The notes under the pieces are model-generated. The model did no database searches. It was not told where the DNA came from and saw nothing but the letters and a program-made list of their open reading frames with translations. 45,749 nucleotides of DNA, taken from positions 1 to 45,749 of IMG/VR virus record IMGVR_UViG_3300010158_000114; one strand, given 5' to 3'. Shown in pieces: positions 15,882-30,771 of this stretch; within the stretch, counting starts at the first letter, position 1, and each line of letters opens with the position of its first letter. Origin of the DNA: a virus. The translations under genes and the position numbers were made by a program.

Positions 15882-16556
15882 TTACTTCTTTTTGGTTTTA
15901 ACAATTTCATCAATAATACCATAATCTAAAGATTCCTGACTATCTAACCATAAATCCCTTGAGGCATCTTTCATAACTTGTTTTGCGGGTTTACCACAAT
16001 ATTCACCAAGAAGTTCAAAAAGAGTATTGTTAATTTTGTACCACTCCTTCATATCAATCTCGGCATCCTGAATATTTCCGTGGAAACCACCTGATGATTG
16101 GTGAAGCATCGTTCTTGAAAATCTTAAAGAACTTCTCTTACCTTTTGTACCCGCACCTAGCAATACTGAACCCATAGAAGCCGCCATTCCTGTGTTTACT
16201 GTCCTGATATCGCATCCGATGTAATTCATCACATCAACCATAGAAAGACCTGATTTAACCGAGCCTCCACCGGAGTCAATATGCATAGTAATATCAGTTT
16301 TATCCGTATTATCCAAGAACATAAGTTGTGCCTGAACAATAGTAGACATTCTATCATCAACAGGACCGGCAACCCATAGTATCCTATCGCGCATAAGCCT
16401 CGAAAAAATATCAATTTGTGTTGCCCTCATTTCCCGTTCTTCAAGGATATAAGGAGTCATAGATGATTCAATTTGATTACCATAGTTGTGTAAATCTAAT
16501 GAACCTTTACCCAAATGTTTGGTGTAATAACTTGTAAATTCTTGTCCGATATTCAT
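15882..16556 (-). CDS. clpP: ClpP-like serine protease
   Basis: A clear S14 family protein (224 aa). The triad is visible: Ser127 in NTGMAASMGS, His152 in RTMLHQSSGG and Asp201 in DASRDLWL, and the oxyanion strand is MHIDSGGGSV (usual Pro replaced by Gly). ClpP forms tetradecamers that degrade proteins fed by Clp unfoldases. The N-terminal 45 residues are longer than a mature ClpP and may be a propeptide. The phage also encodes a Clp ATPase with a ClpP-docking loop (28157-30214) and a tmRNA (25188-25581), so a complete phage protease is plausible. ClpP-like prohead proteases exist, but a separate gp21-like protease is present here. Confidence 0.92.
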   Translation of the reverse strand: MNIGQEFTSYYTKHLGKGSLDLHNYGNQIESSMTPYILEEREMRATQIDIFSRLMRDRILWVAGPVDDRMSTIVQAQLMFLDNTDKTDITMHIDSGGGSVKSGLSMVDVMNYIGCDIRTVNTGMAASMGSVLLGAGTKGKRSSLRFSRTMLHQSSGGFHGNIQDAEIDMKEWYKINNTLFELLGEYCGKPAKQVMKDASRDLWLDSQESLDYGIIDEIVKTKKK

Positions 16557-16566
16557 ATATTATATT

Positions 16567-16878
16567 TTATTCTGTGTAGTGTCCTAAATAGTATTCATAT
16601 TCTTGTCCAACTTTTGGGTTTTTTAAAAATACTTCTTGTCTCGTCATTTCGTGTCTGTATAATTCCATTTCCATAATGATGTTATCACTAACTAAACTAT
16701 CATTAATCATTTTTAAGCTATCTGATTCTTTTCTTAATTGTTTGTTTTCAATTGATTGAAGATGATATAGTTTTTTCTCACTACTTTGTGTGATGGTATT
16801 AATGAATAAAAGCAAAGATAAGGAAACAATTAGAATTTCACGACTAAAATAAGTCAAATGTTTAATAATTTTTTTCAT
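16567..16878 (-). CDS. Membrane-anchored coiled-coil protein (103 aa)
   Basis: An N-terminal hydrophobic helix (about residues 10-28, FSREILIVSLSLLLFINTI) is followed by a charged coiled-coil segment (31-70) and a tail ending EYEYYLGHYTE. It resembles spanin-like or small inner-membrane phage proteins in size, but there is no lipobox partner beside it. It lies 11 bp upstream of clpP on the same strand and may be co-transcribed. Confidence 0.55.
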   Translation of the reverse strand: MKKIIKHLTYFSREILIVSLSLLLFINTITQSSEKKLYHLQSIENKQLRKESDSLKMINDSLVSDNIIMEMELYRHEMTRQEVFLKNPKVGQEYEYYLGHYTE

Positions 16879-16909
16879 AGTATTTTATTTTGTTCAAACA
16901 TACTAAAAA

Positions 16910-16934
16910 TAAAAATGGGAGTCAAATGACTCCC
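16910..16934 (-). terminator. Terminator of a short minus-strand transcript
   Basis: GGGAGTC and GACTCCC pair across AAAT/ATTT; on the minus strand the hairpin is followed by ATTTTTATTTTT. It lies downstream of the 23-codon frame at 16956-17027, not after any long gene. Confidence 0.65.
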
Positions 16935-16955
16935 GATTTCCTCTATAAATTGATT

Positions 16956-17027
16956 TTAGAATTTTATGGTTTGAGATATATCACGTCTCGTACTAACCAA
17001 TTTCTCATATATTATCCCAAAAGACAT
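16956..17027 (-). CDS. Possible 23-residue peptide or small RNA gene
   Basis: Starts MSFGIIYEKLVSTRRDISQT. The frame itself proves little, but it sits 16 bp after a TATTTATAG motif (17051-17043) and 22 bp before a terminator, a full transcription unit of about 140 bases. It could equally be a small RNA. The remainder of the 16879-17097 gap shows nothing else. Confidence 0.35.
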   Translation of the reverse strand: MSFGIIYEKLVSTRRDISQTIKF

Positions 17028-17097
17028 TCTTTTGAAGATATACTATAAATATCAAAAAAAAGTTTGTAATATCAAATATTTTTACTAATTTTATTTT

Positions 17098-17436
17098 ATG
17101 AATAACTTATTTTTTGGTGTGTTATATGGATTGTTTGGACAGATAGGTAGTTTTTTGCAGTTACAGGGTAATGTAAAATATGGTTGGTATGAGAAACATC
17201 CGTATATATTATTATTGGTGAGTATACCAATAAGTTGGTTATATATTCAATCTGTAAAAAGTTTAGTTTTATATTTTGGAGGTGAAATTTGGCAATCAAG
17301 ATTTATAGGTTTTGGAATAGGTATTATTGTTTTTAGTATAATGAGTTCACTTTTATTTAAAGAACCATTTACAATTAAAACATTAATTTCAATACTTTTG
17401 GCTATAATAATAATTTTAATACAAATAATTAAATAA
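17098..17436 (+). CDS. Small multi-pass membrane protein (112 aa)
   Basis: Four hydrophobic helices are visible, at about 2-20, 34-52, 66-84 and 92-111. Size and helix spacing resemble small multidrug-resistance/EamA half-proteins, but the hallmark glutamate of SMR proteins is not evident. Similar four-helix proteins occur in large phages. Function unknown. Confidence 0.62.
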   Translation: MNNLFFGVLYGLFGQIGSFLQLQGNVKYGWYEKHPYILLLVSIPISWLYIQSVKSLVLYFGGEIWQSRFIGFGIGIIVFSIMSSLLFKEPFTIKTLISILLAIIIILIQIIK

Positions 17437-17437
17437 T

Positions 17438-17617
17438 ATGTGGATAATAATTAAAAAAATGGAATTAACCGAAAAGGGTGTTAAAGTACCTGTAGTAATA
17501 ATAGATACACACGGAGAGGTGTTAGATTTTGAAGATTACGCCGAAGCTGAAAAAACAAGATTGTTGTTTCAATCAAACTCCGATTCTGCTCACGAATACA
17601 TACTTAAAGAAATATAA
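17438..17617 (+). CDS. Small hypothetical protein (59 aa)
   Basis: Begins 1 bp after the previous stop, reads MWIIIKKMELTEKGVKVPVV, and ends just before the ATG at 17619. It is a compact protein with a central VVIIDTHGEVLDF beta segment. The tight packing on both sides is good evidence for a real gene. Function unknown. Confidence 0.55.
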   Translation: MWIIIKKMELTEKGVKVPVVIIDTHGEVLDFEDYAEAEKTRLLFQSNSDSAHEYILKEI

Positions 17618-17618
17618 T

Positions 17619-17972
17619 ATGGCTCATCCAAATTTACACGCGAAGAGTTCCGCCAAGAAATTTGGTGGGAAATGGGAAGATTATATTCATCTGCACGAAT
17701 GGCTTGATGAAACCAAAGGATGGTTTGGAGATTCTTTACATAGAATGTTTAGACATCACAGCGAAGGTATATTTGAAATGGAACAGAGGTTTGGTACGGA
17801 ATTTAAAAACTCTGATGGGAAAACGGTATATACAAGATATGTTGGGGAACAACACGTCAAGGAAGATTGTAATGGATATATTCCTTCTGCCAAAGAGTGG
17901 GTTAATAACATTTCATCAAATGAAAGACCTCTTTGGATGATAAAAGTTTTAAAATTAGAATTTGAAGATTAA
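17619..17972 (+). CDS. DUF6915-like protein (117 aa)
   Basis: I chose the ATG at 17619; the frame is open 90 bases further but that overlaps the previous gene. MAHPNLHAKSSAKKFGG, then IHLHEWLDETKGWFGDSLHR, RHHSEGIFEMEQRFG and YVGEQHVKED match the pattern of a conserved family (DUF6915) found in bacteria and phages. The many conserved His residues suggest metal binding. Function unknown. Confidence 0.72.
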   Translation: MAHPNLHAKSSAKKFGGKWEDYIHLHEWLDETKGWFGDSLHRMFRHHSEGIFEMEQRFGTEFKNSDGKTVYTRYVGEQHVKEDCNGYIPSAKEWVNNISSNERPLWMIKVLKLEFED

Positions 17973-17977
17973 AGAGA

Positions 17978-17986
17978 TATTTATAG
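17978..17986 (+). promoter_or_regulatory. TATTTATAG motif
   Basis: Ends 3 bases before the ATG at 17990, in the 17-bp gap between two genes. An instance of the recurrent upstream motif. Confidence 0.5.
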
Positions 17987-17989
17987 TTT

Positions 17990-18709
17990 ATGGAACAAAG
18001 TATATCAATTTTAACACCCGAAGATAAAAAATACCTTAGAAAAGTTTCAAGATATTTGCAATCATATGGATTACAACGAGGAGATATTGAACTTCTTGAA
18101 CTTGAAGATGGTTATGAAATTTATGAAATTTCTGATATTAGATTCGATAGAGTTACAAATTTTTCAAATAATTATTCTGTTGAAGTACCTGAAGGATTAA
18201 TACCAATTCTTGAGAAGATTATGGTTGCAGGACAAAAAAGACAAGATGATATAGATTTTCCCGATTATGTTAATTATGGTAGAATTGAAATTGAAATTGA
18301 TTGTGTAAGTAATGAAATTACGTTAATTCATTATATTACATATATTGAAGCAGGTAATGGAAGAAATTTAGAATTCTCCGCAGAAAATGATGAAATTGGT
18401 ATGGAGGTATTTAATTCAATTAGAGAATACTGTACTGAAGTTGAACCTATTATGGAATTAAAATATAATGGTTCAGGTGATAGCGGTTATTTGGAAGATA
18501 GATTTGAAAATGGTGAACCAGTACCAGGTCCTGTTGAAAATTGGTGTGAAATACAATTATCAAGAAATTTTGGAAGTTGGGGAGATAACGAAGGGTCTGA
18601 AGGTAATTTTATATTTAATATGGAAAATAACACGGCAGAATTAAATCATACGTGGAATGAACAAAATAGTACAACAACAACACTATTTGAAGGGGAATTT
18701 GGAAAATAA
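17990..18709 (+). CDS. Hypothetical protein (239 aa)
   Basis: Starts MEQSISILTPEDKKYLRKVS. Acidic and beta-rich, with an Asn/Gly/Thr-rich C-terminus. No enzyme motifs, signal peptide or membrane segments are visible. It is flanked by a TATTTATAG motif and a terminator, so it looks like a single-gene transcript. Confidence 0.62.
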   Translation: MEQSISILTPEDKKYLRKVSRYLQSYGLQRGDIELLELEDGYEIYEISDIRFDRVTNFSNNYSVEVPEGLIPILEKIMVAGQKRQDDIDFPDYVNYGRIEIEIDCVSNEITLIHYITYIEAGNGRNLEFSAENDEIGMEVFNSIREYCTEVEPIMELKYNGSGDSGYLEDRFENGEPVPGPVENWCEIQLSRNFGSWGDNEGSEGNFIFNMENNTAELNHTWNEQNSTTTTLFEGEFGK

Positions 18710-18728
18710 AATAATTTGAAAAAAGATT

Positions 18729-18756
18729 AACCCGGACTTTGGTAGTTCGGGTTTTT
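18729..18756 (+). terminator. Rho-independent terminator
   Basis: AACCCGGACT pairs with AGTTCGGGTT (one G-T pair) around a 5-base loop, followed by six T. Confidence 0.85.
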
Positions 18757-18760
18757 TATT

Positions 18761-18768
18761 TATATTTG
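18761..18768 (+). promoter_or_regulatory. Bacteroidetes-type promoter element TATATTTG
   Basis: A TAnnTTTG match directly after a terminator and 20 bp before the ATG at 18789. It suggests independent host-polymerase expression of the secreted protein. Confidence 0.5.
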
Positions 18769-18788
18769 TTTATTAACATTAAAACAAT

Positions 18789-19169
18789 ATGAAAAAAGTA
18801 ACACTCATAGTAGTCAGTCTACTCCTAACTTTATTTAGTTATTCACAAGATTTTAATAGAGTTATTGTTGCCAGTAAAAGTGAATGGAATGGTACCGAAT
18901 GGAAGGTAACATCATCAAGTAAACCCACAGATATGTTTGTAATTATGAAAGATTGGGACATTACAATTGGAACATATAAGTTTAAAACTTATGATGACCC
19001 TGAAAAAACAACATATGAAAGTCACGTATGTTATACTTGGAAGTGTGTAAACGGAAATGGTGATAAATGCGTTTTTATGATGAAAAAATTTAAACCCGAA
19101 GTATCAAGTCATATGTTATACTCAATTCTTTATGATACGGGTGTTATGTACGAATACGAATGTGAATAA
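18789..19169 (+). CDS. Secreted protein with signal peptide (126 aa)
   Basis: A signal peptide MKKVTLIVVSLLLTLFSYSQ is followed by a mature part with three cysteines and beta-rich sequence. The FSYSQ cleavage context is typical of Flavobacteria exported proteins. It has its own promoter and terminator and looks like an accessory (moron) gene possibly taken from a host. Possible roles are envelope alteration or superinfection exclusion; neither is shown. Confidence 0.68.
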   Translation: MKKVTLIVVSLLLTLFSYSQDFNRVIVASKSEWNGTEWKVTSSSKPTDMFVIMKDWDITIGTYKFKTYDDPEKTTYESHVCYTWKCVNGNGDKCVFMMKKFKPEVSSHMLYSILYDTGVMYEYECE

Positions 19170-19177
19170 ATAATAGG

Positions 19178-19285
19178 TTGATTGGGAAACCCGAAAGGGT
19201 GAGGAGGGGAGAAATCTCAAGTAAAGCCAATTGTAAAAACAGATGTCCACTCGCCCATCTTCTGTTTTCCTTAAAATATTTTTTG
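19178..19285 (+). other. Structured intergenic element, probable RNA
   Basis: Between two genes lie an ACCC-GAAA-GGGT hairpin with a GNRA loop, a GAG/CTC mini-helix and an outer ATTGG/CCAAT pairing. A long terminator-like hairpin follows (AAAACAGATG and its partner in CATCTTCTGTTTT). The open frame covering it is improbable. It could be a small RNA or a leader element. I see no convincing match to a known riboswitch. Confidence 0.4.
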
Positions 19286-19304
19286 GTAATTAAAAAAAGT
19301 TTCG

Positions 19305-19312
19305 TATCTTTG
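19305..19312 (+). promoter_or_regulatory. Bacteroidetes-type promoter element TATCTTTG
   Basis: An exact TAnnTTTG, with a TTG 19 bases upstream. It ends only 4 bases before the ATG at 19317, implying a leaderless or nearly leaderless mRNA. Confidence 0.6.
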
Positions 19313-19316
19313 TCCT

Positions 19317-19973
19317 ATGATAAAAATAGATACAAATACAAATGTTTGGGTGACAAGTGATTCTCACTTCTCTCACAAAAATATATGTCGTGGTGTGACT
19401 AATTGGAGACTACCTAATGGTGAAATTCCTGTGGGACAAACAAGGGATTTTACAACTATTGAAAAGATGAATACCGCAATTGTTAATAACATTAACGAAG
19501 TTGTGGGACAGGATGATATTCTTATTCACCTTGGGGATTGGAGTTTTGGTGGTTACGAACAAATCAGAGAATTTTGGGATAGATTAGTTTGTAAAAACAT
19601 TCACCTTATACTTGGAAATCACGACCACCACATAGATAGAAATAGAGATGGTTCACAAGGATTGTTCCAAAGTGTTTCTCACTACAATACAGTTGAAATA
19701 GGAGATTATAAATTCCAATTGATGCACTATCCCATTTCGAGCTGGGATGGGTTAAATAAGGGTGTAATGCACTTACACGGACACTGTCACCTTCCTACTA
19801 ATAGAAGATTTGGTGTGGGTAAAAGAATGGATGTTGGAATGGACGGACATCCTGAGTTCAGACCTTATAACTTAATAAGAGAAGTTGTTCCATTATTAAA
19901 GAAAAGACCGATTAAATCGGAAATTGGTGAAGACCACCACACAGATGATATTGTAAATAAAGATAAAGGATAA
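19317..19973 (+). CDS. Calcineurin-like metallophosphoesterase (second copy)
   Basis: Motifs in order: TSDSHFSHKNI near residue 13, ILIHLGDWSFGG near 64, LILGNHDHH near 96, LMHYP near 138 and HLHGHCHLP near 155. These are the metal ligands of the superfamily, in the arrangement of the phage- and bacterial-type single-domain phosphoesterases that begin WVTSDSHFSH. It differs clearly from the enzyme at 1002-1688. It is followed by a small gene, a P-loop kinase and tRNA genes, so a role in end-processing of nucleic acid (paired phosphatase and kinase) is a fair hypothesis. Confidence 0.88.
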   Translation: MIKIDTNTNVWVTSDSHFSHKNICRGVTNWRLPNGEIPVGQTRDFTTIEKMNTAIVNNINEVVGQDDILIHLGDWSFGGYEQIREFWDRLVCKNIHLILGNHDHHIDRNRDGSQGLFQSVSHYNTVEIGDYKFQLMHYPISSWDGLNKGVMHLHGHCHLPTNRRFGVGKRMDVGMDGHPEFRPYNLIREVVPLLKKRPIKSEIGEDHHTDDIVNKDKG

Positions 19974-19978
19974 AATAT

Positions 19979-20188
19979 ATGAAAAATAAAGTTTGGATTA
20001 AAACAGAGATTACAACACACACAGAACAAGATATAAGGATTCAGCCAACACCTGAATTTGATGGAATTACGTTGGAGTTTAAAGATGTTGATGATGCGGA
20101 TTATAAAACTAGATTGTATTTGAACACAGAAAGTTTGGAGGCGTTAATAGCCAAATTGAGAGAGACAATGGATTACGTTAAACAATAA
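19979..20188 (+). CDS. Hypothetical protein (69 aa)
   Basis: Starts MKNKVWIKTEITTHTEQDIR. A small beta-rich acidic protein between the phosphoesterase and the kinase, with gaps of 5 and 3 bp, so clearly in the same operon. Function unknown. Confidence 0.62.
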   Translation: MKNKVWIKTEITTHTEQDIRIQPTPEFDGITLEFKDVDDADYKTRLYLNTESLEALIAKLRETMDYVKQ

Positions 20189-20191
20189 ATT

Positions 20192-20575
20192 ATGAAAGAA
20201 TTAATACTATTAAGAGGATTACCCGGAAGTGGTAAATCAACATTAGCAAAAACATTAGGTGGACCAGTATTTGAAGCCGACAATTTTTTTATGTTTGAGG
20301 GTGAATACAAGTTTAATCCGTCATTATTAAGTAATGCCCATAGTCATTGTCAAAACCAAACACAAATTGCGATGTTGGATGAACACGAAAAAATAATTGT
20401 TTCCAATACATTCACTCAAGAGTGGGAGATGAAATCGTACTATGAATTAGCCAAAAAATACGGGTATAGAGTTCATTCTATCATAGTGGAGAATAGACAC
20501 GGAGGAGTAAACGAACACGGAGTTCCTGAAGATAAGTTAGTATTTATGAAAAATAGATTTGAAGTTAAATTGTAA
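20192..20575 (+). CDS. P-loop kinase, polynucleotide-kinase-like (127 aa)
   Basis: Walker A RGLPGSGKST (residues 8-17) is followed by an FEADNFFMF block, HSHCQNQ, and an IIVSNTFTQEWEM strand. The NRHGGVNEHGVP and KNRFE elements are typical of the NEDD4BP2/T4-PNK-like 5'-kinase group. Those enzymes phosphorylate nucleic-acid 5' ends; the substrate here is not proven. It lies 8 bp upstream of the tRNA genes. Confidence 0.78.
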   Translation: MKELILLRGLPGSGKSTLAKTLGGPVFEADNFFMFEGEYKFNPSLLSNAHSHCQNQTQIAMLDEHEKIIVSNTFTQEWEMKSYYELAKKYGYRVHSIIVENRHGGVNEHGVPEDKLVFMKNRFEVKL

Positions 20576-20582
20576 ATAAAAT

Positions 20583-20655
20583 GCGTGCGTAGTTCAATTG
20601 GTAGAACATCGGTCTCCAAAACCGAAGATGGTAGGTTCGAGTCCTCACGTGCGTG
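20583..20655 (+). tRNA. tRNA-Trp (CCA anticodon)
   Basis: Cloverleaf by eye: acceptor GCGTGCG/CGTGCGT with three G-T pairs, D-arm GTTC/GAAC, anticodon stem TCGGT/ACCGA with loop CTCCAAA (anticodon CCA) and T-loop TTCGAGT. Only the inner three T-stem pairs form. The 3' CCA is not encoded in full. Confidence 0.85.
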
Positions 20656-20661
20656 CAGAAT

Positions 20662-20733
20662 GCCGCGGTGGTCAAGGGGTTAAGACGCTTCCCTTTCACG
20701 GAAGAGTCACGGGTTCAATTCCCGTCCGGGGTA
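20662..20733 (+). tRNA. tRNA-Glu (TTC anticodon)
   Basis: Acceptor GCCGCGG/CCGGGGT with one mismatch, anticodon stem CTTCC/GGAAG with loop CTTTCAC (anticodon TTC) and T-stem ACGGG/CCCGT with loop TTCAATT. It follows the Trp tRNA by 6 bases. CCA is not encoded. Confidence 0.85.
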
Positions 20734-20741
20734 CAATTTTT

Positions 20742-20882
20742 TAGTTGGGCAGTGGGAGGTTCCCTCATAGCAATCATCGGTGCTTTAGGTATGGAAGAGG
20801 CCGAATAGATACATCCGATAGAGTATCAAATAAGGTTGATTCCTGATTCAAATCCTAACAGGTTCGATTCCTGTACCAACTA
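20742..20882 (+). ncRNA. tRNA-like RNA, too long for a tRNA
   Basis: The ends pair as an acceptor-like helix (TAGTTGG at 20742-20748 with CCAACTA at 20876-20882). Just inside the 3' strand is a perfect T-arm, ACAGG-TTCGATT-CCTGT. The interior, however, is about 110 bases where a tRNA has about 40-45. Internal hairpins include GATAC/GTATC and TCGG/CCGA. A GATTC-CTGATTC-AAATC arm at 20838-20854 could present anticodon GAT, but no D-arm is found. It may be an interrupted tRNA or a tRNA-mimicking RNA. The insert is too small for an ordinary group I intron. Confidence 0.55.
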
Positions 20883-20890
20883 AACAATTA

Positions 20891-21025
20891 AACCGAGTAG
20901 AAATGCGTAGATGAGTTATCTGGGAGAACAGAGACGCAAGGGTACACACTTAGTAATTCTCTTATGGTGTGTGAAGTGGTTAAACGTGAGCCGACGGGAT
21001 ACCTGATAAAACTTATCACTCGGTT
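20891..21025 (+). ncRNA. Structured non-coding RNA of unknown class
   Basis: The ends pair perfectly (AACCGAGT with ACTCGGTT). Inside are AGAT/ATCT enclosed by GCGT/ACGC, a six-pair ACACAC/GTGTGT helix, GGTT/AGCC and a TGATA/TATCA hairpin. That makes a five-helix junction-like fold. A strong terminator begins 9 bases downstream. No family recognised. Confidence 0.5.
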
Positions 21026-21033
21026 ATAAAAAA

Positions 21034-21584: not shown

Positions 21585-21611
21585 AACCCACCTTTTTAGG
21601 TGGGTTTTTTT
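21585..21611. terminator. Terminator between lipoprotein and convergent peptidase
   Basis: AACCCACCT and AGGTGGGTT pair around TTTT and are followed by T-run on the plus strand. Confidence 0.85.
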
Positions 21612-22839
21612 ATTTAAGTAATTTTTTTATTCTTTCTATATTCTCGTTAATTTTTTCATCTTCTTTATCCACCTCTTTTTCTTTATATGTGGGACTCATT
21701 TTTGTTAACCAATTAGGTGTTGGTTGTTCTTTGTCAGTTGCTCTTGCCCATCTTTTTTCAATCCTTTCACCTGTTTTTTTATCGTATTTGTCTTTAAATG
21801 GATTTAATAACTTGAAAGGCGCTTGTATTAATGCAGCCATTAATGGGTCTTTGTATGTTTTAGATTTTTTATATTCTTTTTCTTTATCGTCATCTTTGTC
21901 TTTATCATCGTCTGTATCTACGTTAAGATATTTTGTTATTGATACCTTATCATAAGTAGAGTTGTAAAGTGAAATAATAACATCATCATTTGTTTCACCT
22001 ATTATTTTTCCTTTACGTACTTTTTCACCATCAGAAACGTAAGGTTTGGTTATATTGCAAAATTCTAAATAATATTTTTTCTCTTTAATAAGATGTTGAA
22101 TTACAATTTTATTAACACAAGACGTACTAGAATCTTTTTTATTATTTACAATACCATCGACAGGACTTTTAATTTGTGAATTACTATTTTTTGGTAATTT
22201 AATTGTGCCCGAACTTAAAACTTTATCTTTACCGAATTCTGAATATATTTTTTCTTCTTTTAAACCAAATGAAGCACCTATAGATTTTATAAAATTTCTT
22301 TCTATATCATCTGTAGGAGTACTTCCTGATTGTGATGTTGCAAAGTCTTTTGAAGGTGAGAGAGGTTCTGAAATTGGGGTATCTTGTTTTTCTGTTGGGG
22401 TACCTGTTGTATTTGAAACGTGAACGTGATTATCGTGACCGGGAAATCCAAAAGTTAATACTGCTTTAGGGTTACCAGATTCTCTATTTTTAGTATAACC
22501 CATTTTTATCAATTCACCTACAAGTTTGTCGGCGTCTCCTCTATTTGAGTTACTAACTGCTTTACCATTAATTATTGCAATATCAACCGCATTACCTGTT
22601 GTATGTCTTGATTTACCTGTTTTGTGTCCTGAAACTGCTGTCGTGACATCAACCTTTACATTAGCTCTTTCAGCTGCAGTTTGAACATCCTTTAAAAGTG
22701 CGACATTAATATTATCTTTAGATGGTGTACTACTACCTACGACTCTATCTTTAAAATCAACATTTGCGTATACATCATCCGCCTCTGAAATATTCATAAG
22801 TGTTTTTAACCTAGTAATATTTTCATTTAATTTTTTCAT
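21610..22839 (-). CDS. Peptidoglycan peptidase-like protein: M15-like domain plus degenerate M23-like domain (409 aa)
   Basis: Residues 60-142 look like an M15 D,D-peptidase core: SRHTTGNAVDIAI (His79, Asp86) and FPGHDNHVHVS (His138/His140), the expected zinc ligands. Residues 210-300 resemble an M23/LytM barrel (IKSPVDGIV, IVIQHLIKEKKYYLEF, KVRKGKIIG), but the catalytic histidines are not evident, so this part may bind rather than cut. The C-terminal 100 residues are Lys/Asp/Glu-rich. Targeting-like ends occur at both N- and C-termini (LNENITRLKTLM and INENIERIKKLL). A virion-associated wall hydrolase is likely. Confidence 0.72.
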   Translation of the reverse strand: MKKLNENITRLKTLMNISEADDVYANVDFKDRVVGSSTPSKDNINVALLKDVQTAAERANVKVDVTTAVSGHKTGKSRHTTGNAVDIAIINGKAVSNSNRGDADKLVGELIKMGYTKNRESGNPKAVLTFGFPGHDNHVHVSNTTGTPTEKQDTPISEPLSPSKDFATSQSGSTPTDDIERNFIKSIGASFGLKEEKIYSEFGKDKVLSSGTIKLPKNSNSQIKSPVDGIVNNKKDSSTSCVNKIVIQHLIKEKKYYLEFCNITKPYVSDGEKVRKGKIIGETNDDVIISLYNSTYDKVSITKYLNVDTDDDKDKDDDKEKEYKKSKTYKDPLMAALIQAPFKLLNPFKDKYDKKTGERIEKRWARATDKEQPTPNWLTKMSPTYKEKEVDKEDEKINENIERIKKLLK

Positions 22840-23670: not shown

Positions 23671-25134
23671 TTAAAGCGGGACTAAATTACCTTCTTTGAA
23701 ATCATCAAAGTTAGGGCCTTTTGTTAAAATATTTTTTTTATTTTTTCTTTCGTAATTTAATATTCCGGCGTTTCTTGCAGATGCGAAAAACGCACTAAAA
23801 TATCCTTTTGGTTGTATATGACCTCTTTTTCCAATATATTTTTTTGTTCCGTCAGGGTTGACTAAAATTCTAACAACTTTTGCGTCTTCCAAGAAATCTA
23901 TTGCATTTCCTTCTTTTCCACTATCTATATAATCAACTAATTTATTGATTAAACCACCCTTTCTTTCAAAGGTAAATCCATAACTACTTCTATTTGGACT
24001 CCAACTTTTTTTACCACCTAAAACAAATTTTTGTAAGTTTTTATCATATTCAAGCCTTCTCCAAATTTGAGAATTCAATATATTACAAACTTGTTTAAAT
24101 GGGGGAATAGTGCTTTGCGTTAGGTTTAATCCAAAATTGGCATCCATATGCCACAAAGTAGTAAGTTCGGCAGGCGGTTCAAAGTTATCATCGGGTTCAT
24201 AACCAACATCAAAAGAATATGAATCATTTCCAGGTAGTTTATTATAAGAAATTTTTAAAGTTCCCTGTTCAATTATCTGTTCATTATCTTCCCAACCTAA
24301 ATAAACAATTAAATCCATTTCCGCAAATCCTGCACCTTCATTAGATATTTGAGGATTTTTAAATTCAAGTGTTAATGGTTTTTTTGAATTAAAGAGGTCA
24401 TAGGTGGCAACTACGTGGTCGTGATTTTTTGGATTAAAAAGTTCTTTAATTATTTTGTTTTTGTTCTCATTAAAATCATCATCAATTGCCTTTGTTGCTT
24501 TTTTTCCTAATCCCACTTTTAATACATCAACTTCTCTTGGAGGCATCGGTGTATCTTTTGCATCATACCAAGTATCTTGATTATTATCTCTATGTAATGC
24601 GATTTTATAAAACTTATTGCTAATATCAAACTCTTTCATTATTATATAATAAAGTCCCTGATTACCTGATGTATGTTTGTCGTAATATCCTGGTGAAGTT
24701 TCTGTTGTGCACCATTTGGTTCCGGCACCATATTTACAAGACGCTTTATGAGATAAAGGTTTCACAATAAGAACTCTACCATCCTCATATATTTTTTTTG
24801 CGTCAGAGTCAATCTTTTTTTCTTGAGATTTTGAACTATAAGATTGTATAACGCCCATTAGTTCTGCAACATCAGGATATTGATTGATGTCTTTTTTTTC
24901 TAAATTCTTACCTATCCTATCAAAGTCTTTAACTAATTGTAAAACTTCTAATGCGTGTGTGGTGGAAGCAAAATCTAAATGATTAAAAATCCAATCAACA
25001 TATTTGTAATTTGTTGCTTTTGTAAATTCATCATTTAAAATCGCATCTAAGGTTTGCATATCATACTCACCCATATACTTTTTAAGTAATGTTTCTCTTC
25101 TACCTTCAGATAGGACAAATTCAGAAAATTTCAT
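23671..25134 (-). CDS. KWCTT-motif phage protein, paralogue 2 (487 aa)
   Basis: The motif KPLSHKASCKYGAGTKWCTT at about residues 125-144 matches the protein at 6204-7292, and WYDAKDTPM matches its FWNAEDTRV. The N-terminus MKFSEFVLSEGRRETLLKKY has the I/L-x-E pattern of the late proteins. The C-terminal 250 residues are unique to this copy and mixed alpha/beta. Two paralogues in one window suggest a family important to the phage. Activity unknown. A TATTTATCA motif (25145-25137) lies just upstream. Confidence 0.68.
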   Translation of the reverse strand: MKFSEFVLSEGRRETLLKKYMGEYDMQTLDAILNDEFTKATNYKYVDWIFNHLDFASTTHALEVLQLVKDFDRIGKNLEKKDINQYPDVAELMGVIQSYSSKSQEKKIDSDAKKIYEDGRVLIVKPLSHKASCKYGAGTKWCTTETSPGYYDKHTSGNQGLYYIIMKEFDISNKFYKIALHRDNNQDTWYDAKDTPMPPREVDVLKVGLGKKATKAIDDDFNENKNKIIKELFNPKNHDHVVATYDLFNSKKPLTLEFKNPQISNEGAGFAEMDLIVYLGWEDNEQIIEQGTLKISYNKLPGNDSYSFDVGYEPDDNFEPPAELTTLWHMDANFGLNLTQSTIPPFKQVCNILNSQIWRRLEYDKNLQKFVLGGKKSWSPNRSSYGFTFERKGGLINKLVDYIDSGKEGNAIDFLEDAKVVRILVNPDGTKKYIGKRGHIQPKGYFSAFFASARNAGILNYERKNKKNILTKGPNFDDFKEGNLVPL

Positions 25135-25154: not shown

Positions 25155-25183
25155 TTAAAAAACCCTCCTTTATGGGGAGGGTT
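25155..25183 (-). terminator. Terminator of tmRNA gene
   Basis: Minus strand: AACCCTCCCC and GGAGGGTT pair around ATAAA and are followed by TTTTTTAATTT. It starts 4 bases after the tmRNA 3' CCA. Confidence 0.85.
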
Positions 25184-25187
25184 AATT

Positions 25188-25581
25188 TGGTGGAGGTGTC
25201 GGCGTCGAAGCCGAGTCTTGTTCGCCATAAAATCAGATGACTACACGTTTAGTACAACATTAATTCTCAACGTTACGAAATATCAGGTTTGATGTATGTG
25301 AGAAACCTACCTGCAAACAACTTGGTCTCAGAATTATTTTAAACGAGCTCTGACCTGTGACCCGTACAACGGACTTCTGTTGCAAGGTGTATGTCCTAAC
25401 CGACCCCAATGTCGTACTCTACTAATTAAGCAGCTACAACGCTTTCTTCTCTGATAAGACCAAGAGTAGAAAGTTTAGAAATGGTTTTGCCATTTACGTT
25501 TTAAATCAGTTTTTAAGGAGTTAATTCAGCTCCTACGTGCCATCTAACCCTATAAACGCCAATCAATTCCATTTCACCCCC
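25188..25581 (-). ncRNA. ssrA: tmRNA (one-piece, ssrA)
   Basis: Both ends of a tRNA-like domain are visible on the minus strand: 5' GGGGGTG pairs with 3' CACCTCC (one G-U pair), and the encoded discriminator and CCA follow. The 3' T-arm reads GACTCGGCTTCGACGCCGAC. The length of 394 bases is normal for tmRNA. A tag frame lies at about 25495-25426: after a GTA or GGC resume codon it reads NGKTISKLST, then LGLIREES and VVAA, then TAA. The Ala-Ala end with preceding hydrophobics is the classic proteolysis degron. At 21-23 residues the tag is about twice the usual 8-12. tmRNA rescues stalled ribosomes with SmpB, which is not seen here, and marks the product for Clp proteases. Confidence 0.9.
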
Positions 25582-25601: not shown

Positions 25602-25609
25602 TAAAGGTA
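25602..25609 (-). promoter_or_regulatory. Possible tmRNA promoter (TACCTTTA)
   Basis: Minus strand TACCTTTA resembles TAnnTTTG with a G-to-A change. It lies 20 bases upstream of the mature 5' end, leaving a short leader for RNase P removal. Confidence 0.35.
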
Positions 25610-25641
25610 AGAATAAATATTCAATATTCAAAACAAAAGAA

Positions 25642-25650: not shown

Positions 25651-25661
25651 ATAAAATTTCT

Positions 25662-26780
25662 GTGAGATTTATATTAGAAGAAGATGATGAAGACATAACC
25701 CTATATAAAGCGTTAAGATTATATACAAGGGGTAAAATTGATGAGGATGAACTTGATGGTGCCGATAAAGACATCTATAGAATCTCCCGTGCAAGTAATC
25801 CTGCACAATCAGAAATCACATTTGAATTTAGTGATGATGAAAAAATATTTGAATTATTGGGATTAGATGAAGATGACGGATGGTTTGCGAGAAGGGTTAT
25901 GGATTCATACTCAAATATTGATATTGAAGCTTATGATAGTATGTATGATGATTTTATTCAGGGGTACGGCTCACTTTTTTATAACTTTAATAAAGAGAAT
26001 TTGAAAAAACTACAAGAAATTTCACAAATGATTATTGGAAAAAAAATTGAATTAAGTATCGAATCGGACAACTCTCTTTTGGCGAAAACATTAGATGAAC
26101 TTTTTAGAAATGAAGCGAGTAATATGATTGATTATTTTCATACATATCTTAATGAAGAAATTAGAATAACCGCCAAAGAGTCAATCAGTACAGAATTAAA
26201 CGACTTTTTAAATAAAATTGGTTTTAAATTATACAGGAATTTTGATATGCTCATATCAACCCCCGCAAATCTTTTAATGTGGTATTTGAGACTTAATGAG
26301 AAAGATTTAGATTTTGAAGATTTATTTACCAAAATTTGTGAATTTACAATGAGTGATTCAAGAGGAAGAGAAAGACTTGGTGGATGGAATGAAAACCAAT
26401 ATGAGTTTAGAGACTCCGACAATTTTGATGATGTTGCATTTAATAGAGGAATTGAAACCCAACTTGATAGAATAATTGAAAAACTTGAGGAAGATGAAGA
26501 TACTCTTAGAGTTAGTCAGATTTATAAGCAAATATTTGAGATGGGGTATGATTTACAAAGGTGGGAAGAACTACCGAAAGATAATAAATATAAATTTAGA
26601 ATTGAAAGCGTTGATAGAGACACATTAAAAATAAGAGTTAAGTTGTCTCAAACTCCTTATGATTGGAATGATGAGGGAACACTTAGGAGCGTTGATATTG
26701 AAGGATTAAAATTACTATTAAATCACCCCGAATTATTCAAATTGCAAGAAAATATAATTAAAAAATTAAGAAAGTTTTAA
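25662..26780 (+). CDS. Acidic hypothetical protein (372 aa)
   Basis: Starts at GTG (VRFILEEDDEDITLYKALRL), with a TATTTATTA motif upstream and no earlier ATG. Strongly acidic in the first 110 residues, then helical. No catalytic motif or membrane segment is visible. Gene context (tmRNA and peptidase) gives no clear hint. Function unknown. Confidence 0.6.
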   Translation: MRFILEEDDEDITLYKALRLYTRGKIDEDELDGADKDIYRISRASNPAQSEITFEFSDDEKIFELLGLDEDDGWFARRVMDSYSNIDIEAYDSMYDDFIQGYGSLFYNFNKENLKKLQEISQMIIGKKIELSIESDNSLLAKTLDELFRNEASNMIDYFHTYLNEEIRITAKESISTELNDFLNKIGFKLYRNFDMLISTPANLLMWYLRLNEKDLDFEDLFTKICEFTMSDSRGRERLGGWNENQYEFRDSDNFDDVAFNRGIETQLDRIIEKLEEDEDTLRVSQIYKQIFEMGYDLQRWEELPKDNKYKFRIESVDRDTLKIRVKLSQTPYDWNDEGTLRSVDIEGLKLLLNHPELFKLQENIIKKLRKF

Positions 26781-26798
26781 TTATTCACATTTTTTACC

Positions 26799-26806
26799 TA
26801 TCTTTG
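26799..26806 (+). promoter_or_regulatory. Bacteroidetes-type promoter element TATCTTTG
   Basis: An exact TAnnTTTG 17 bp before the ATG at 26824. Confidence 0.6.
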
Positions 26807-26823
26807 TATCAAACAAATATTAA

Positions 26824-27663
26824 ATGATACAAAATTTAGAATTATTAAAAGAGGTTCTTTCAGTTCCCACCAAAACATATAAAGAAGAAAAGATGATTAT
26901 CTATCTGTTAAATTGGTTAACGGAAAATAACATCAACCATTATATGGATGATTATGGTAATGTTTATGCGACCAAGAAGGAACAAGAAGTTTCAGATGAC
27001 TTTTATTTTCCTTGTGTAATTTCCCACACAGATACTGTTCACAATCTTGATACAATAAATGTTAGAGAAGAGATGTTAAAAAATGCTCAAGGTGAATTAA
27101 AACCATCTTTTAAGGCGTATAATGATAATAATGTTCCAACAGGAATTGGTGGTGATGATAAATGTGGTGTATTTGCCTGTCTAACACTTTTACAAGAATT
27201 ACCATATGTGAAAGCAGCGTTTTTTGTTTCAGAAGAAACGGGATGTCACGGCTCACGAATGGCAGACCCAACTTTTTTTGAAAATGTTGGATATGGTATT
27301 CAATTTGATGCACCTGAAAATTGGATGATTACTGAACAGTGTTTTGGAAATGTCCTTTTTGATAGAGATTCTGACTTTTTTGAGAAATGTGATAAGGTAT
27401 TAACCGAAGGAATGGATAATGATAGAATGAGATATATGGTTCATCCTTATACTGATGTTTATGCTTTATCAGACAAATTTGATTTTGCTTGTATCAACTT
27501 CTCAATTGGATATTATGACTATCATACAAGAAATGAATATGTGGTGATTGAGGATGTTTATAACGGAATTGAGATAGGTAAACAGATGATTGAATCTCTC
27601 GGATATGTTAAACACAAAAAACGACAGGACGAGAAGAAAAGAACTTACAGTTCAATATTTTAA
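26824..27663 (+). CDS. M20-type metallopeptidase (peptidase T / aminoacylase fold) lacking the lid domain
   Basis: Metal-site motifs in order: VISHTDT (His68, Asp70), GIGGDDKCG (Asp111/112), VSEETGCHGS (catalytic Glu137, Glu138), IQFDAPE (Asp162) and YDYHTRNEYV (His234). These are the zinc ligands and base of M20/M42-type enzymes such as tripeptidase T. At 279 aa it is much shorter than the usual 370-420, and the dimerisation/lid domain between the two ligand groups is nearly missing. It could trim peptides released by the phage ClpP. It has a host-type promoter and its own terminator. Confidence 0.85.
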   Translation: MIQNLELLKEVLSVPTKTYKEEKMIIYLLNWLTENNINHYMDDYGNVYATKKEQEVSDDFYFPCVISHTDTVHNLDTINVREEMLKNAQGELKPSFKAYNDNNVPTGIGGDDKCGVFACLTLLQELPYVKAAFFVSEETGCHGSRMADPTFFENVGYGIQFDAPENWMITEQCFGNVLFDRDSDFFEKCDKVLTEGMDNDRMRYMVHPYTDVYALSDKFDFACINFSIGYYDYHTRNEYVVIEDVYNGIEIGKQMIESLGYVKHKKRQDEKKRTYSSIF

Positions 27664-27668
27664 TTTAA

Positions 27669-27702
27669 ATCCCCACTCTTATTAGAAGGTGGGGTTTTTT
27701 AT
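27669..27702 (+). terminator. Rho-independent terminator
   Basis: CCCCAC pairs with GTGGGG around a 12-base loop and is followed by six T. It closes the M20 peptidase gene. Confidence 0.8.
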
Positions 27703-28098
27703 TTCTTTCAAAAGATTTAAAAGATTATCGTCACCATATTTTATTATTAATTTTTTAAAAAGCTTGTAAGATTTAGTATTTATTATCTTTTTTTTAGATA
27801 AATTATCAAATTTAGTCACCCATTCTAAATTTTCTAATCTATTGTCGGCAACATTCCAGTTAATATGATTAACCTCCATATTTTTAATATCTTCAATTTC
27901 ATTAAAACAGGATAATACTAATCTGTGTAACTCAAAATAATACATATTTTTTTTATATGTTATTGTTATTCTCATATAACCTGTTTTTTTATGTAGTCTT
28001 GGTTTTAAAATTCTACCGGTTTTATTATTTTTAACTCTGCCCAAATTTGATACCGAATAGAGATTATCTAATTTTTTTATTTCAATCCATTTTTCCAT
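27682..28098 (-). CDS. HNH homing endonuclease with NUMOD4 domain (138 aa)
   Basis: NUMOD4 motif at the N-terminus (WIEIKKLDNLYSVSNLGRVK), then KPRLHKKTGYMRI, HRLVLSCF and an HNH core VNHINWNVADNRLENLEWVT. Such free-standing nucleases are mobile selfish genes common in T4-like phages. It has a TATTTATAA motif upstream and lies between the M20 peptidase and Clp ATPase genes, suggesting recent insertion. Confidence 0.88.
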   Translation of the reverse strand: MEKWIEIKKLDNLYSVSNLGRVKNNKTGRILKPRLHKKTGYMRITITYKKNMYYFELHRLVLSCFNEIEDIKNMEVNHINWNVADNRLENLEWVTKFDNLSKKKIINTKSYKLFKKLIIKYGDDNLLNLLKEIKNPTF

Positions 28099-28120
28099 AT
28101 TTATAAATATCTTAAAATAT

Positions 28121-28146
28121 AAAAAAAGGGGAACATTTGTTCCCCT
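28121..28146 (-). terminator. Terminator of the Clp ATPase gene
   Basis: A perfect AGGGGAACA/TGTTCCCCT hairpin with T-run on the minus strand. Confidence 0.85.
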
Positions 28147-28156
28147 GATAAAAAAA

Positions 28157-30214
28157 TTAATCTACTTTCTTTTTTCTACTAACTCTTTTTGGTTTTTCCT
28201 CAACAACCAACTCTTCATTTATATTGACTTGTTCTTCTGAAACACTCAACATATAAGTTTTGTCCTCAAATACTTTACCAAGTAACACCTCCTCTGATAA
28301 GAAATCCTCAACTTTGTCTTGGATTGCTCTTTTGAGTGGTCTTGCACCAAATGCCTCATCATAACCAACCTTGGTGAGATAATCAACAAGCGTATCGTCA
28401 TATTTGATAACATATTTCATATCCAACAAACGAGTCATCAGTTTATCCAACTCAATTCGGGTGATTTTCTTAATGTCGTCAGGAGACAACGTGTTGAAGA
28501 CAATCGTGTCATCAATCCTGTTGATAAATTCAGGTGCGAAAAACGCTTTCATTTCTTTCATCAACATTTGTTTTTTGGCTTCTTCGTTGCTATAAGCATT
28601 TGAACTAAAACCAATACCTGTTCCGAAGTCCTGAAGTTTTTTAACCCCAAGGTTTGATGTAAGGATAATCAAGGTGTTTTTGAAGTTGATTTTTCTACCC
28701 AAACTATCTGTTACGTGTCCATCATCAAGTATTTGAAGTAGAACCGTAAACACGTCCTTATGAGCTTTCTCAACTTCATCAAACAAGATTACCGAATATG
28801 GTTTATTTTTAACTTTTTCGGTTAAAAGTCCACCTTCTTCATATCCAACATAACCCGGAGGTGCTCCTACTAATTTAGATACAGTATGTTTCTCTTGGTA
28901 TTCAGACATATCAACTCTGATAAGTGAATCCTCACTACCAAAAATCTCTTTTGCCAGTTGCTTTGCCAGATAGGTCTTACCAACACCTGTTGAACCAAGA
29001 AATACAAATGAACCAATTGGACGATTTGGGTCTTTGATACCTAATCTGTTTCTTTTGATAGATTTCGCAATCTTAATAACCGCATTATTCTGTCCAATAA
29101 CCTTATCAATTAAGGATTTATCAAGATTTATAAGTGCCTTGTTATCGTCAACATTCATTTTACTCACAGGAATATTAGTCATAGTCGATACAACAGAATA
29201 GACATCTTCAACAGATATTTTTTGTTTATCTTTTTGCATTTGTTCTTCAAACTTCTTTTTTTCGGCGTCTAACTTGGTTATAAGTTTTTTCTCTTTGTCT
29301 CTTAACTCTGCAGCTTTCTCGTATTGTTGTCTTTTAACAACGTCAACTTTTAATTGTTTCAATTCCGCAGCTTGTTTTTTCAATACCTCAATTTCTTCAG
29401 GAACTTTTAGTTCGGTTTGCATTCTCGCCCCAACTTCATCCAAAATATCAAATGCTTTATCAGGAAAACCTCTATCCGTGATATATCTATCGGCAAGTTT
29501 AACACAAGCTTCAATTACTTCATCACTATAATTCACCTTGTGATAGGTTTCATATTTTTCTCTTATGTTTTTGAGAATCTCAATTGTTTCCTTAACTGAT
29601 GAAGGTTCAACAATTATTTTTTGGAATCTGCGCTCTAATGCACCATCTTTTTCAATATTCTTTCTGAACTCATTTAATGTGGTTGCACCGATGCATTGGA
29701 GCTCACCACGAGCAAGAGCAGGTTTAAAGATGTTGGAGCCGTCCATAGAACCTGAAGAGTTTCCAGAACCAACCAAAGTATGAATCTCGTCAATAAAGAC
29801 AATAATGTTTGGATTGTTGTGGAGTTCTTCCATAATAACTTTCAATCTTTCCTCAAATTGTCCTCTGTATTTTGTACCAGCAACAACGGAAGTCAAATCA
29901 AGTTCAACAATTCTTTTATCAACCAAATTTCTCGGGCAATCACCATTATAGATTTTAATTGCCAATCCCTCAACAATTGCAGTCTTACCACAACCTGGGT
30001 CACCAATAATAATCGGGTTATTTTTCTTTCTGCGAGATAAAATCTGTGCGATACGTAGGATTTCTTTTTCTCTACCAATAACAGGGTCTAATTTACCTTG
30101 TTCGGCAAGTTTAATTAAATCTCTACTGAAATTATCTAACACAGGTGTATCACTTTCTGATGAGGTTTTTTTCTTACTCATCATTTTTTCGTCATCATCC
30201 ATTAGTTCATTCAT
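28157..30214 (-). CDS. Clp/Hsp100 unfoldase, ClpC/ClpA-like, without N-domain
   Basis: Two AAA+ modules. The first has Walker A GDPGCGKT (71-78) and Walker [10 protein letters not shown] (137-145). The second has Walker A GSTGVGKT (407-414), the pore loop PPGYVGY (452-458) and Walker [11 protein letters not shown] (476-485). A short middle segment with a UVR-like [14 protein letters not shown] (296-309) points to ClpC rather than ClpB, which has a long coiled coil. FGTGIGFSS carries an IGF tripeptide (534-536), the loop that docks Clp ATPases on ClpP and is absent in ClpB. The usual 140-residue substrate-binding N-domain is replaced by about 25 polar residues. The C-terminus is Lys/Arg-rich. 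It divergently faces hsp20. Confidence 0.93.
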
Positions 30215-30229
30215 AATTTATAATTTTTA

Positions 30230-30237
30230 CAAAGGTT
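30230..30237 (-). promoter_or_regulatory. Possible clp promoter AACCTTTG
   Basis: A minus-strand AACCTTTG, one base off TAnnTTTG, 16 bp upstream of the ATG, with TTTG about 20 bases further upstream. Confidence 0.4.
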
Positions 30238-30264
30238 CATCAAATTTTGGACATTACCAAACTT

Positions 30265-30338
30265 TTTGTCAAATTGTCCTGAAAATTTTCTATGTATGTC
30301 ATTTTGTCATAATATGTTCTGTTGGCACATAACTTGAC
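30265..30338 (+). promoter_or_regulatory. Sigma-54-like promoter and TGTC repeats ahead of hsp20
   Basis: TGGCAC at 30323-30328 and TTGA after exactly 5 bases match the -24/-12 sigma-54 consensus (TGGCAC-N5-TTGC) except for the last base. Upstream are two pairs of TGTC half-sites (30266-30278 and 30297-30310), as would suit an activator or heat-shock regulator. Predicted transcription start is about 30348. Confidence 0.45.
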
Positions 30339-30384
30339 TAATCAAAGATAATTAAATAAATTTAAAAAACAAAACAAAAAAATT

Positions 30385-30771
30385 ATGATTTACTTGAATT
30401 CACATTTCGACAAATTTTTTGATGGGTTTTTCGCACAACCTACTTATAGTAATATGGTTGTTAAAAATTCAGATAAAGAACCTTATGAGGTAAACTACAC
30501 CAAAGACGGAGCTTACTTATTCTTTGATGTTCCTGGCTTTAATAAGTCAAATTTAAAAGTAGAAATGGAAGGGGGAGTTCTTTACCTTGATGGTAAAAGA
30601 ACATATAAATTAAATGGTGAAGACACAGAAAAAGTTATTTCACAAAAATTTAGAATCGGACAAGAATATAACCCCGACAACATCGAAGCAACAATTGAAG
30701 ATGGTATACTTACCGTATTTGTTGCAAACTACAAGAAAACGGAAAAGAAAAAAAGAATAAGTTTGTTGTAA
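30385..30771 (+). CDS. Small heat-shock protein (Hsp20/alpha-crystallin)
   Basis: An alpha-crystallin domain spans about residues 32-120 (AYLFFDVPGFNKSNLKVEME, LYLDGKRTY, KFRIGQEYNPDNIEATIEDG) and ends in ILTVFVANYKK with an IxL-like tail (RISLL). Hsp20 holds unfolded proteins for refolding or degradation. At 128 aa it is of normal minimal size. It is divergent to the Clp ATPase with a shared 170-bp regulatory region. Confidence 0.92.
   Translation: MIYLNSHFDKFFDGFFAQPTYSNMVVKNSDKEPYEVNYTKDGAYLFFDVPGFNKSNLKVEMEGGVLYLDGKRTYKLNGEDTEKVISQKFRIGQEYNPDNIEATIEDGILTVFVANYKKTEKKKRISLL

Follow-up and report, generated by a model that had tools for sequence, protein, structure and literature searches.

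A family of large phages carries a tmRNA with a conserved tag near a phage ClpC-like unfoldase, an M20 peptidase and ClpP: a plausible tagging-to-degradation pathway

Introduction

In the systems covered by a review of trans-translation, SsrA-tagged proteins are degraded by ClpXP, ClpAP and Lon (PMC8012679). Parts of this machinery have also been reported from phages: transfer-messenger RNA (tmRNA) and SmpB occur in huge phages (PMC7162821), the 656 kb marine Mar_Mega_1 holds one tmRNA (PMC9723777), and a survey counted tmRNA in 402 of 18,146 phage genomes (PMC9004378). The present study concerns the IMG/VR record IMGVR_UViG_3300010158_000114, analysed whole at 45,749 bases (the window), which encodes a tmRNA, a ClpP peptidase, a Clp ATPase, an M20 metallopeptidase and Hsp20; an earlier note on this DNA had proposed that the five form an autonomous line from stalled ribosome to degraded and trimmed protein.

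Two described phages invite comparison. The Sinorhizobium jumbo phage AP-J-162 similarly holds tmRNA, six Clp open reading frames (ORFs; clpX is named) and Hsp20 in one genome, but its host is Rhizobium, and the portions of its published description to which our comparison is confined contain no pathway or tag analysis (PMC11242549). The OM43 phage Melnitz is a marine phage whose tmRNA, its authors suggest, might tag host proteins for recycling, but that tmRNA is a two-piece molecule accompanied by a glutamine riboswitch, and no Clp protease is mentioned in the sections available (PMC9004378). In the accessible literature, which excluded most subscription journals, we found no demonstrated role for phage tmRNAs, despite the years for which they have been known, and no account that joins tmRNA and Clp of phages in a single system; a word search of the main text of two Lak phage papers did not find tmRNA, Clp or SmpB. 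Each part of the set is already known from giant phages, and other huge phages hold as many parts or more, so that having all of them in one genome, which the earlier note had considered special, is not what is new here. What is new is the conserved tag of the family, paired with a protease that the phage itself encodes.

Results and discussion

The ATPase, M20 and tmRNA genes form a conserved block

The record was taken as belonging to a T4-like large phage, with terminase, portal and head maturation protease genes at 36.5-42.3 kb. Since it is probably a fragment, with larger relatives of up to 321 kb, absences were checked in those larger relatives. The family was defined as 64 IMG/VR loci encoding a close relative of the window ATPase, a method biased to close relatives; whole records were searched for 38 of these loci, three of them 317-321 kb long and none known to be complete. 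The main features of the window are the following.

15882..16556, minus strand: ClpP peptidase of Bacteroidota type (PF00574, 188 bits, above cut-off)
25188..25581, minus strand: one-piece tmRNA (ssrA) with encoded 3' CCA and an acceptor stem with G3-U70 (Rfam RF00023)
25426..25491, minus strand: tag reading frame with stop, GKTISKLSTLGLIREESVVAA (frame conserved in relatives and read by ARAGORN in two of them, L002 and L003)
25157..25182, minus strand: terminator-like hairpin with a T run, directly after the tmRNA (read in the sequence)
25603..25631, minus strand: TTG-N19-TAnnTTT site, a Bacteroidota-type promoter-like candidate starting 50 nt before the tmRNA
26824..27663, plus strand: minimal M20 metallopeptidase, PepT-like (PF01546, 26.4 bits)
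28157..30214, minus strand: ClpC-like double-AAA unfoldase without N-domain, with a UVR-type middle segment and a GIGF loop

Rfam and Pfam matches confirmed that the five parts named in the earlier note are real and lie where it had placed them, and they look intact as it had described, with a complete ClpP triad, the GIGF loop of the ATPase and a full-length tmRNA. Across the 64 related loci, ATPase, M20 and tmRNA make up a conserved block in the order ATPase, M20 (opposite strand), a 372-residue protein (opposite strand) and tmRNA. M20 lies beside the ATPase in 59/64 loci, and the remaining five stop at most 703 bases past the ATPase match. The tag was recovered by profile search in 52/64 loci besides the window, including three (L010, L022 and L028) whose records fall under the Rfam cut-off, and the 12 loci without it stop at most 3,650 bases past the ATPase match. 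Since the smallest ATPase-to-tag-frame distance in the family is 2,209 bases, truncation certainly accounts for seven of these 12; that it also explains the other five (L019, L033, L035, L036 and L042) is likely but not proven. Among the 38 records, 33 had a tmRNA above the Rfam cut-off and 18 had ClpP, which in all 16 records with both matched lay 5.9-26.4 kb downstream of the tmRNA on the same strand; in 16 of the 17 records with tmRNA and without ClpP, the sequence stops no more than about 21.5 kb from the tmRNA. ATPase, M20, tmRNA and ClpP are repeatedly found together in family members, which agrees with the grouping made in the earlier note. With tmRNA, ATPase and ClpP on the minus strand and M20 and Hsp20 on the plus strand, they do not form a single operon.

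Had these been independent jumbo-phage auxiliary genes, kept for separate reasons and with tmRNA and protease not acting together, neither the frequency of M20 beside the ATPase nor that of the tag would be expected, nor the renewed combination of tmRNA, ClpP and a Clp unfoldase in Lak phages, in LR756504 and in the contig G039:C291. We consider this alternative distinctly unlikely, even though Hsp20 is optional, the gene strands differ, huge phages gather translation genes generally (PMC7162821) and AP-J-162 likewise gathers GroES, DnaJ and Hsp20 (PMC11242549).

The tmRNA is full length, with an intact tRNA-like end

The RF00023 match covers the complete model (1-374) at 78.3 bits, compared with a gathering score of 47 (E = 7e-29), and the fold beats 100 of 100 shuffles (z = -2.3). 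The seven pairs of the acceptor stem are standard in all 24 distinct family tmRNAs, and two-sided changes occur at pairs 4-7; G3-U70, which we take to be the alanine identity determinant, is invariant (24/24), and the full CCA is encoded in 14 of the 24. T-stem positions, read in a fixed 17-base frame, pair in 18 to 24 of the 24 sequences, and a T-arm one base shorter in six sequences, the window included, accounts for the mispairs as judged by eye. Of 34 family tmRNAs (24 distinct sequences), 22 are preceded by a candidate site resembling what we assume to be the Bacteroidota-type promoter consensus (spacer 17-21), and none was seen before the other 12.

ARAGORN missed the tmRNA when run on the window. 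On 26 family loci it reported a tmRNA in 10, with the full tag in seven and another tag reading in three (for two of these a shortened form of the tag, read in the same frame), and missed 16, so that such systems are easily overlooked. As a separate observation, the window encodes two KWCT-motif proteins (6204-7292 and 23671-25134; phrog_17056 and phrog_28193), one of which adjoins the tmRNA, and in some relatives the 372-residue protein is separated from the tmRNA by a stretch related to them.

The tag is conserved as a protein and differs from host tags

The tag frame beginning at GGC is the conserved one across relatives, and in L002 and L003 ARAGORN independently calls a tag identical to that of the window; for this reason an alternative frame from GCA (AKPFLNFLLLVLSEKKAL) was rejected. 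Family tags are 21-22 residues long, compared with nine in seven Bacteroidota genomes (GENNYAMAA in three; GDNNYAMAA, GEGNYALAA, GENNYALAA and GEANYAMAA in one each), an eighth genome, from a Prochlorococcus single cell, having given no tag under the rule applied. Reported tags range from 8 to 35 residues in one review (PMC8012679), and 10 residues is the commonest length among 97,179 database sequences (PMC11915505); length alone is therefore not new.

What sets these tags apart is how they vary. The sample comprised 27 distinct nucleotide tags, corresponding to 21 distinct peptides, and Lys6, Gly11 and Leu12 were invariant in all 21, within an inner motif G-N-x-[FLI]-x-K-[ML]-x-x-[LIV]-G-L whose first two positions are given as the commonest residues. 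For the 21-residue tags, the ratio of non-synonymous to synonymous differences (pN/pS) was 0.64 in the tag frame vs 0.75 and 0.96 in the shifted frames, and 0.55 over codons 1-12 vs 0.77 over codons 13-21. Along the edges of minimum-spanning trees, in a test without a term for transition bias, 77.5 of 202 changes among the 21-residue tags were synonymous vs an expected fraction of 0.26 (p = 5e-5), as were 12 of 15 among the 22-residue tags (p = 1e-5). The tag is under purifying selection as a protein. Its last two residues are VA in 8/21 peptides, AA in 7/21 and something else in six (EA, VS, TA, TI, AV, KA), so that the host-like final Ala-Ala is retained in only seven. A conserved inner part together with a relaxed end would be expected if the reader had changed, and we judge this to be the most informative fact in the analysis.

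Two other readings of the tag bear on this point. It is conceivable that phage tmRNA and host SmpB rescue ribosomes, that host ClpXP takes the tagged chains, and that the phage ClpC-like unfoldase with ClpP serves otherwise, for example against host regulators or misfolded virion proteins. Most tags do end in a small residue, as the VA and AA counts show, kilobases separate ClpP from tmRNA, and other ClpC-bearing phages have other tags; we nevertheless find this unlikely, as the tags of some lineages end in TI, VS or AV where the seven host tags have MAA or LAA, and the invariant internal K6, G11 and L12 point to a reader of the inner part. A pure decoy, on the other hand, has no need for a peptide conserved over 21 residues or for a conserved nearby protease, which makes it very unlikely that the tag is only a replacement label, with phage tmRNA competing for SmpB, phage chains escaping host ClpXP and ribosome rescue as the sole gain. 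That reading would fit the relaxed C-terminal residues of some lineages, the discussion of the tag-less tmRNA-like RNA of mycobacteriophage DS6A as a tmRNA inhibitor (PMC4131195, PMC11915505), and the statement that with a degradation-deficient tag survival is ensured by resolving stalled complexes, not by degradation (PMC8012679).

The idea that the motif is a degradation signal shared with another phage protein was rejected, since matches were confined to tmRNA tags: in a 321 kb family record (G005), the 64 loci and the window, no other frame matched at E <1. Among the tags read, the inner motif is confined to this phage family. In four loci (L020, L021, L031 and L062) the resume codon is GAC (Asp) in place of GGC (Gly), as in Lak tmRNAs.

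The proteolytic partners: ClpC-like ATPase, ClpP and M20

The solved protein nearest to the ATPase is ClpC, and NCBIfam models of ClpB and ClpA match it below their cut-offs. Its N-terminus is short, with no N-domain, in 64/64 relatives, and Clp_N is not among the best 25 of 31 Pfam families for the window protein. An IGF or VGF loop was found in 61/64 ATPases, two of the others being truncated (L055 and L061) and one not read by the pattern (L031); the UVR match is weak (18.5 bits vs a cut-off of 21.5). A search of ten family records with the ClpX model hit just this ClpC-like ATPase, which is therefore the sole Clp unfoldase that we recognised in the family (the search did not extend to Lon, FtsH or HslU), and ClpS was found in none of the ten. 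The closest ATPase and ClpP among GenBank phages are both in LR745206, at 58.7% and 62.2%, respectively.

In ClpP the Ser-His-Asp triad is intact in the alignment, and the protein scores 231 bits with NF011091, under the strict curated cut-off of 361. Its nearest cellular relatives are ClpPs of Flavobacteriaceae (46-47% identity), which suggests a Bacteroidota origin and, by extension, Bacteroidota as the probable host phylum. Although the best PHROGs family for ClpP is the head-maturation family phrog_94 (118 bits), a role as head maturation protease was rejected, because the head-maturation model NF045542 reaches only 59.9 bits (cut-off 120) and the window has a separate gene for this function, which we take to be of T4 gp21 type:

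41595..42308, plus strand: separate head maturation protease (phrog_207, E = 6.8e-43)

Most positions of what we take to be the docking pocket for the IGF loop match cellular Flavobacteriaceae ClpP. Loss of this pocket was considered on account of polar residues at positions 92 and 112 (presumably Met92 and Phe112 in E. coli ClpP numbering), and the idea was abandoned, since these residues are shared or closely matched by cellular Flavobacteriaceae ClpPs (Thr92, Ser/Thr112); His at position 62 remains. Among the 19 rows with at least 58% identity to the window ClpP, 18 have His at this position, the exception being a partial sequence with Tyr from a metagenome-assembled genome (MAG; L143); over all 38 ClpP rows the residue is His in 18, Tyr in 18, Trp in one and Lys in one. 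Of the 18 His62 rows, one is from LR745206 (L117) and three are from cellular assemblies (L134, L135 and L136), which we take to be phage contigs binned there. These three are a 254-kb contig of a Bacteroidetes MAG (L134, CAIWBA010000291.1; ClpP 73% identical to the window), an 84-kb contig of a Prochlorococcus single-cell genome (L135; 66%) and a short contig of a Flavobacteriaceae MAG (L136; 59%).

The M20 match lies just over the PF01546 cut-off of 24.6. Candidate metal-ligand residues, assigned as we presume them to be in M20 enzymes, are invariant in 17/17 aligned sequences, the window included. The predicted model has a mean predicted local distance difference test score (pLDDT) of 78, and a fold search with it returned PepT tripeptidases as the best matches (3gb0, E = 7e-11, template modelling score 0.69 by query length); scores with the NCBIfam models of PepT fall far short of the respective cut-offs. 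The peptide trimming suggested in the earlier note would fit this modelled likeness to tripeptidases.

The set recurs in giant Bacteroidota phages, here without SmpB and ClpX

The earlier note had found no SmpB in the window and had called for a wider search for smpB, clpX and clpS. SmpB was found neither in the window record nor in any of the 38 related records (0/38, including the three of 317-321 kb), ClpS was absent from ten (0/10), and no separate ClpX was seen in the same ten. Since the family yields no SmpB, host SmpB would be needed, as the note had anticipated, and its word autonomous does not hold.

Eight further records were searched: three Lak (Prevotella) records, LR756504, LR745206, LR756502, LR756508 and Flavobacterium phage immuto 13-6C. 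Together they gave a tmRNA above cut-off in 5/8, SmpB in 6/8 and a ClpP-family protein in 7/8; immuto 13-6C had no tmRNA over the cut-off, no SmpB and no ClpP in the same searches. In the other seven, a ClpP-family protein is present in 7/7 and a tmRNA in 5/7, and SmpB was found in the three Lak records, LR756504, LR745206 and LR756502 and not in LR756508, whose divergent ClpP-family protein scores 57 bits and has Asn in the Asp column. A ClpX search of five records gave matches above cut-off in LR756504 and Lak-B1 and to both halves of the model in Lak-C1; in LR745206 and LR756502 it gave only ATPase cross-matches, plus one 16.5-bit match in the former. ClpS occurs in LR745206, LR756502 and LR756504. 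In Lak-C1 (MK250029.1, W05:C1:60453-62603), the two halves of ClpX share one open frame of 740 residues and are separated by some 314 inserted residues, possibly an intein.

For a ClpC-like ATPase, Lak phages gave nothing above 16-bit matches, and their tag is a 10-residue DDEI[DE]FRMAA (the Lak-B1 tmRNA is barely above cut-off, 47.3 vs 47). The tags of LR756504, LR756508 and G039:C291 have 24, 36 and 24 residues; the 36-residue tag of LR756508 (W03:C1:92434-92880), GVNNADYESAGFTAEDFAQMDGESLYHGSERKPAAV, falls just past the range of 8-35 given in one review (PMC8012679). G039:C291, a 254-kb phage-like contig in a Bacteroidetes MAG, equal in length to the contig of L134, holds tmRNA, SmpB, ClpP and a ClpC-like ATPase together, with a different tag. 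The Lak, LR756504 and G039:C291 combinations indicate that tmRNA is repeatedly accompanied by a Clp protease in giant phages of Bacteroidota, and by these searches the window family is a version of this recurrent set without SmpB and ClpX. In the cases seen, too few for a test, tag type tracks unfoldase type, the MAA-ending 10-residue Lak tag contrasting with tags of 21-36 residues in ClpC-bearing phages. A tmRNA near the ATPase of LR745206 and LR756502 was rejected, neither having one above cut-off and only the first containing a 22.8-bit fragment. In these two phages, of 635-642 kb, a GOLLD RNA (RF02032) precedes the ClpC-like ATPase, by about 2 kb in LR745206 (L082:7532-7937; 287 bits) and by about 6 kb in LR756502 (L083:4004-4410; 275 bits).

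Compared with bacterial trans-translation, the phage system has the same tmRNA anatomy, with G3-U70, and a tag whose first residue is Gly, a feature shared by the seven Bacteroidota tmRNAs (GGC where the codon is shown). It differs in its tag, longer and with a relaxed C-terminus, in the absence of any SmpB or ClpX found in the family, and in an unfoldase without N-domain.

A plausible phage-directed tagging-to-degradation pathway

We propose the following sequence of events. In infected Bacteroidota cells, the phage would make its own tmRNA, which host alanyl-tRNA synthetase would charge and host SmpB would deliver to stalled ribosomes. The ribosome would then add the 21-22-residue phage tag in place of the nine-residue host tag G-[ED]-x-N-Y-A-[LM]-A-A, and the N-domain-less ClpC-like unfoldase, docked on phage ClpP, would take up and degrade the tagged chains, leaving products that the PepT-like M20 peptidase could trim. 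Ribosomes would be freed, amino acids recovered and broken chains removed under phage control. That phage tmRNA, the phage ClpC-ClpP pair and M20 form such a pathway, borrowing SmpB from the host, is a reading for which we see belief and doubt evenly balanced. The pathway is plausible, and the comparative data constrain it more than the window alone could; recognition of the tag by the phage protease is a prediction. Of the earlier interpretation, the parts and their co-occurrence stand, while its autonomy, the fixed place of Hsp20 and the uniqueness of the set do not.

Several observations weigh against this pathway. Its genes are split over both strands with other genes in between, SmpB is missing from 38/38 related records, and one record (G028) extends 27.8 kb downstream of its tmRNA with no ClpP found. 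The phage ClpP has His62 where 6/6 cellular Bacteroidota rows have Tyr, which could weaken docking. LR745206 and LR756502 hold ATPase and ClpP without a tmRNA over the cut-off, and LR756504, LR756508 and G039:C291 carry a related ClpC-like ATPase and tags that give no tag-profile match. Finally, the family commonly has VAA or VVA at the tag end, which host ClpXP could read too, and weaker selection at the tag end, or a tolerant ClpXP, would give the same pattern of conservation.

A bolder version of the proposed pathway, tentative and in our view somewhat unlikely, would be that the family has replaced both label and reader: the inner motif would be read by the ClpC-like unfoldase with ClpP, which has His at the putative pocket position, in a manner orthogonal to host ClpXP, so that the phage would take over quality control during infection with borrowed host SmpB. 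A conserved, lineage-specific tag near a phage protease turns the question of what phage tmRNA is for into an assay of two proteins and one peptide, and makes it possible to test whether a virus has put its own quality-control label in place of that of its host. If the pair were truly orthogonal to host proteases, it would also provide a natural degradation tag for laboratory use.

Neighbouring genes and further observations

Three further genes lie in or beside the block.

25662..26780, plus strand: 372-residue protein with no fold match, between M20 and tmRNA (relative in 56/64 loci)
27682..28098, minus strand: NUMOD4/HNH endonuclease, an insertion between ATPase and M20
30385..30771, plus strand: Hsp20, optional and divergent from the ATPase (PF00011, 49 bits)

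Hsp20 adjoins the ATPase in 25/64 loci only and was for that reason rejected as a member of the pathway, in which the earlier note had given it a fixed place. The 372-residue protein evolves fast, with 23-42% identity to the window in 19 of 20 aligned relatives and 70% in the nearest; its model is confident (mean pLDDT 87), and a fold search of the PDB gave no match (best E 0.09). The HNH insertion was seen in the window and in one of the 64 relatives (L047).

Between the starts of the ATPase and Hsp20 genes, TTGGCACATAACTTGAC at 30322-30338 is close to what we take to be the sigma-54 consensus, as a single candidate site. Finally, by eye, unrelated-looking ORFs share loosely similar N-terminal peptides, for example MKKFIISETEKKEIL and MGKFFITEGEKRNIQ (ORFs at 8368-8988, 10204-10974, 11662-12081, 13948-15087, 21610-22839 and 30832-31335); these are reminiscent of T4 capsid-targeting sequences, and the proteins that bear them are possibly packaged.

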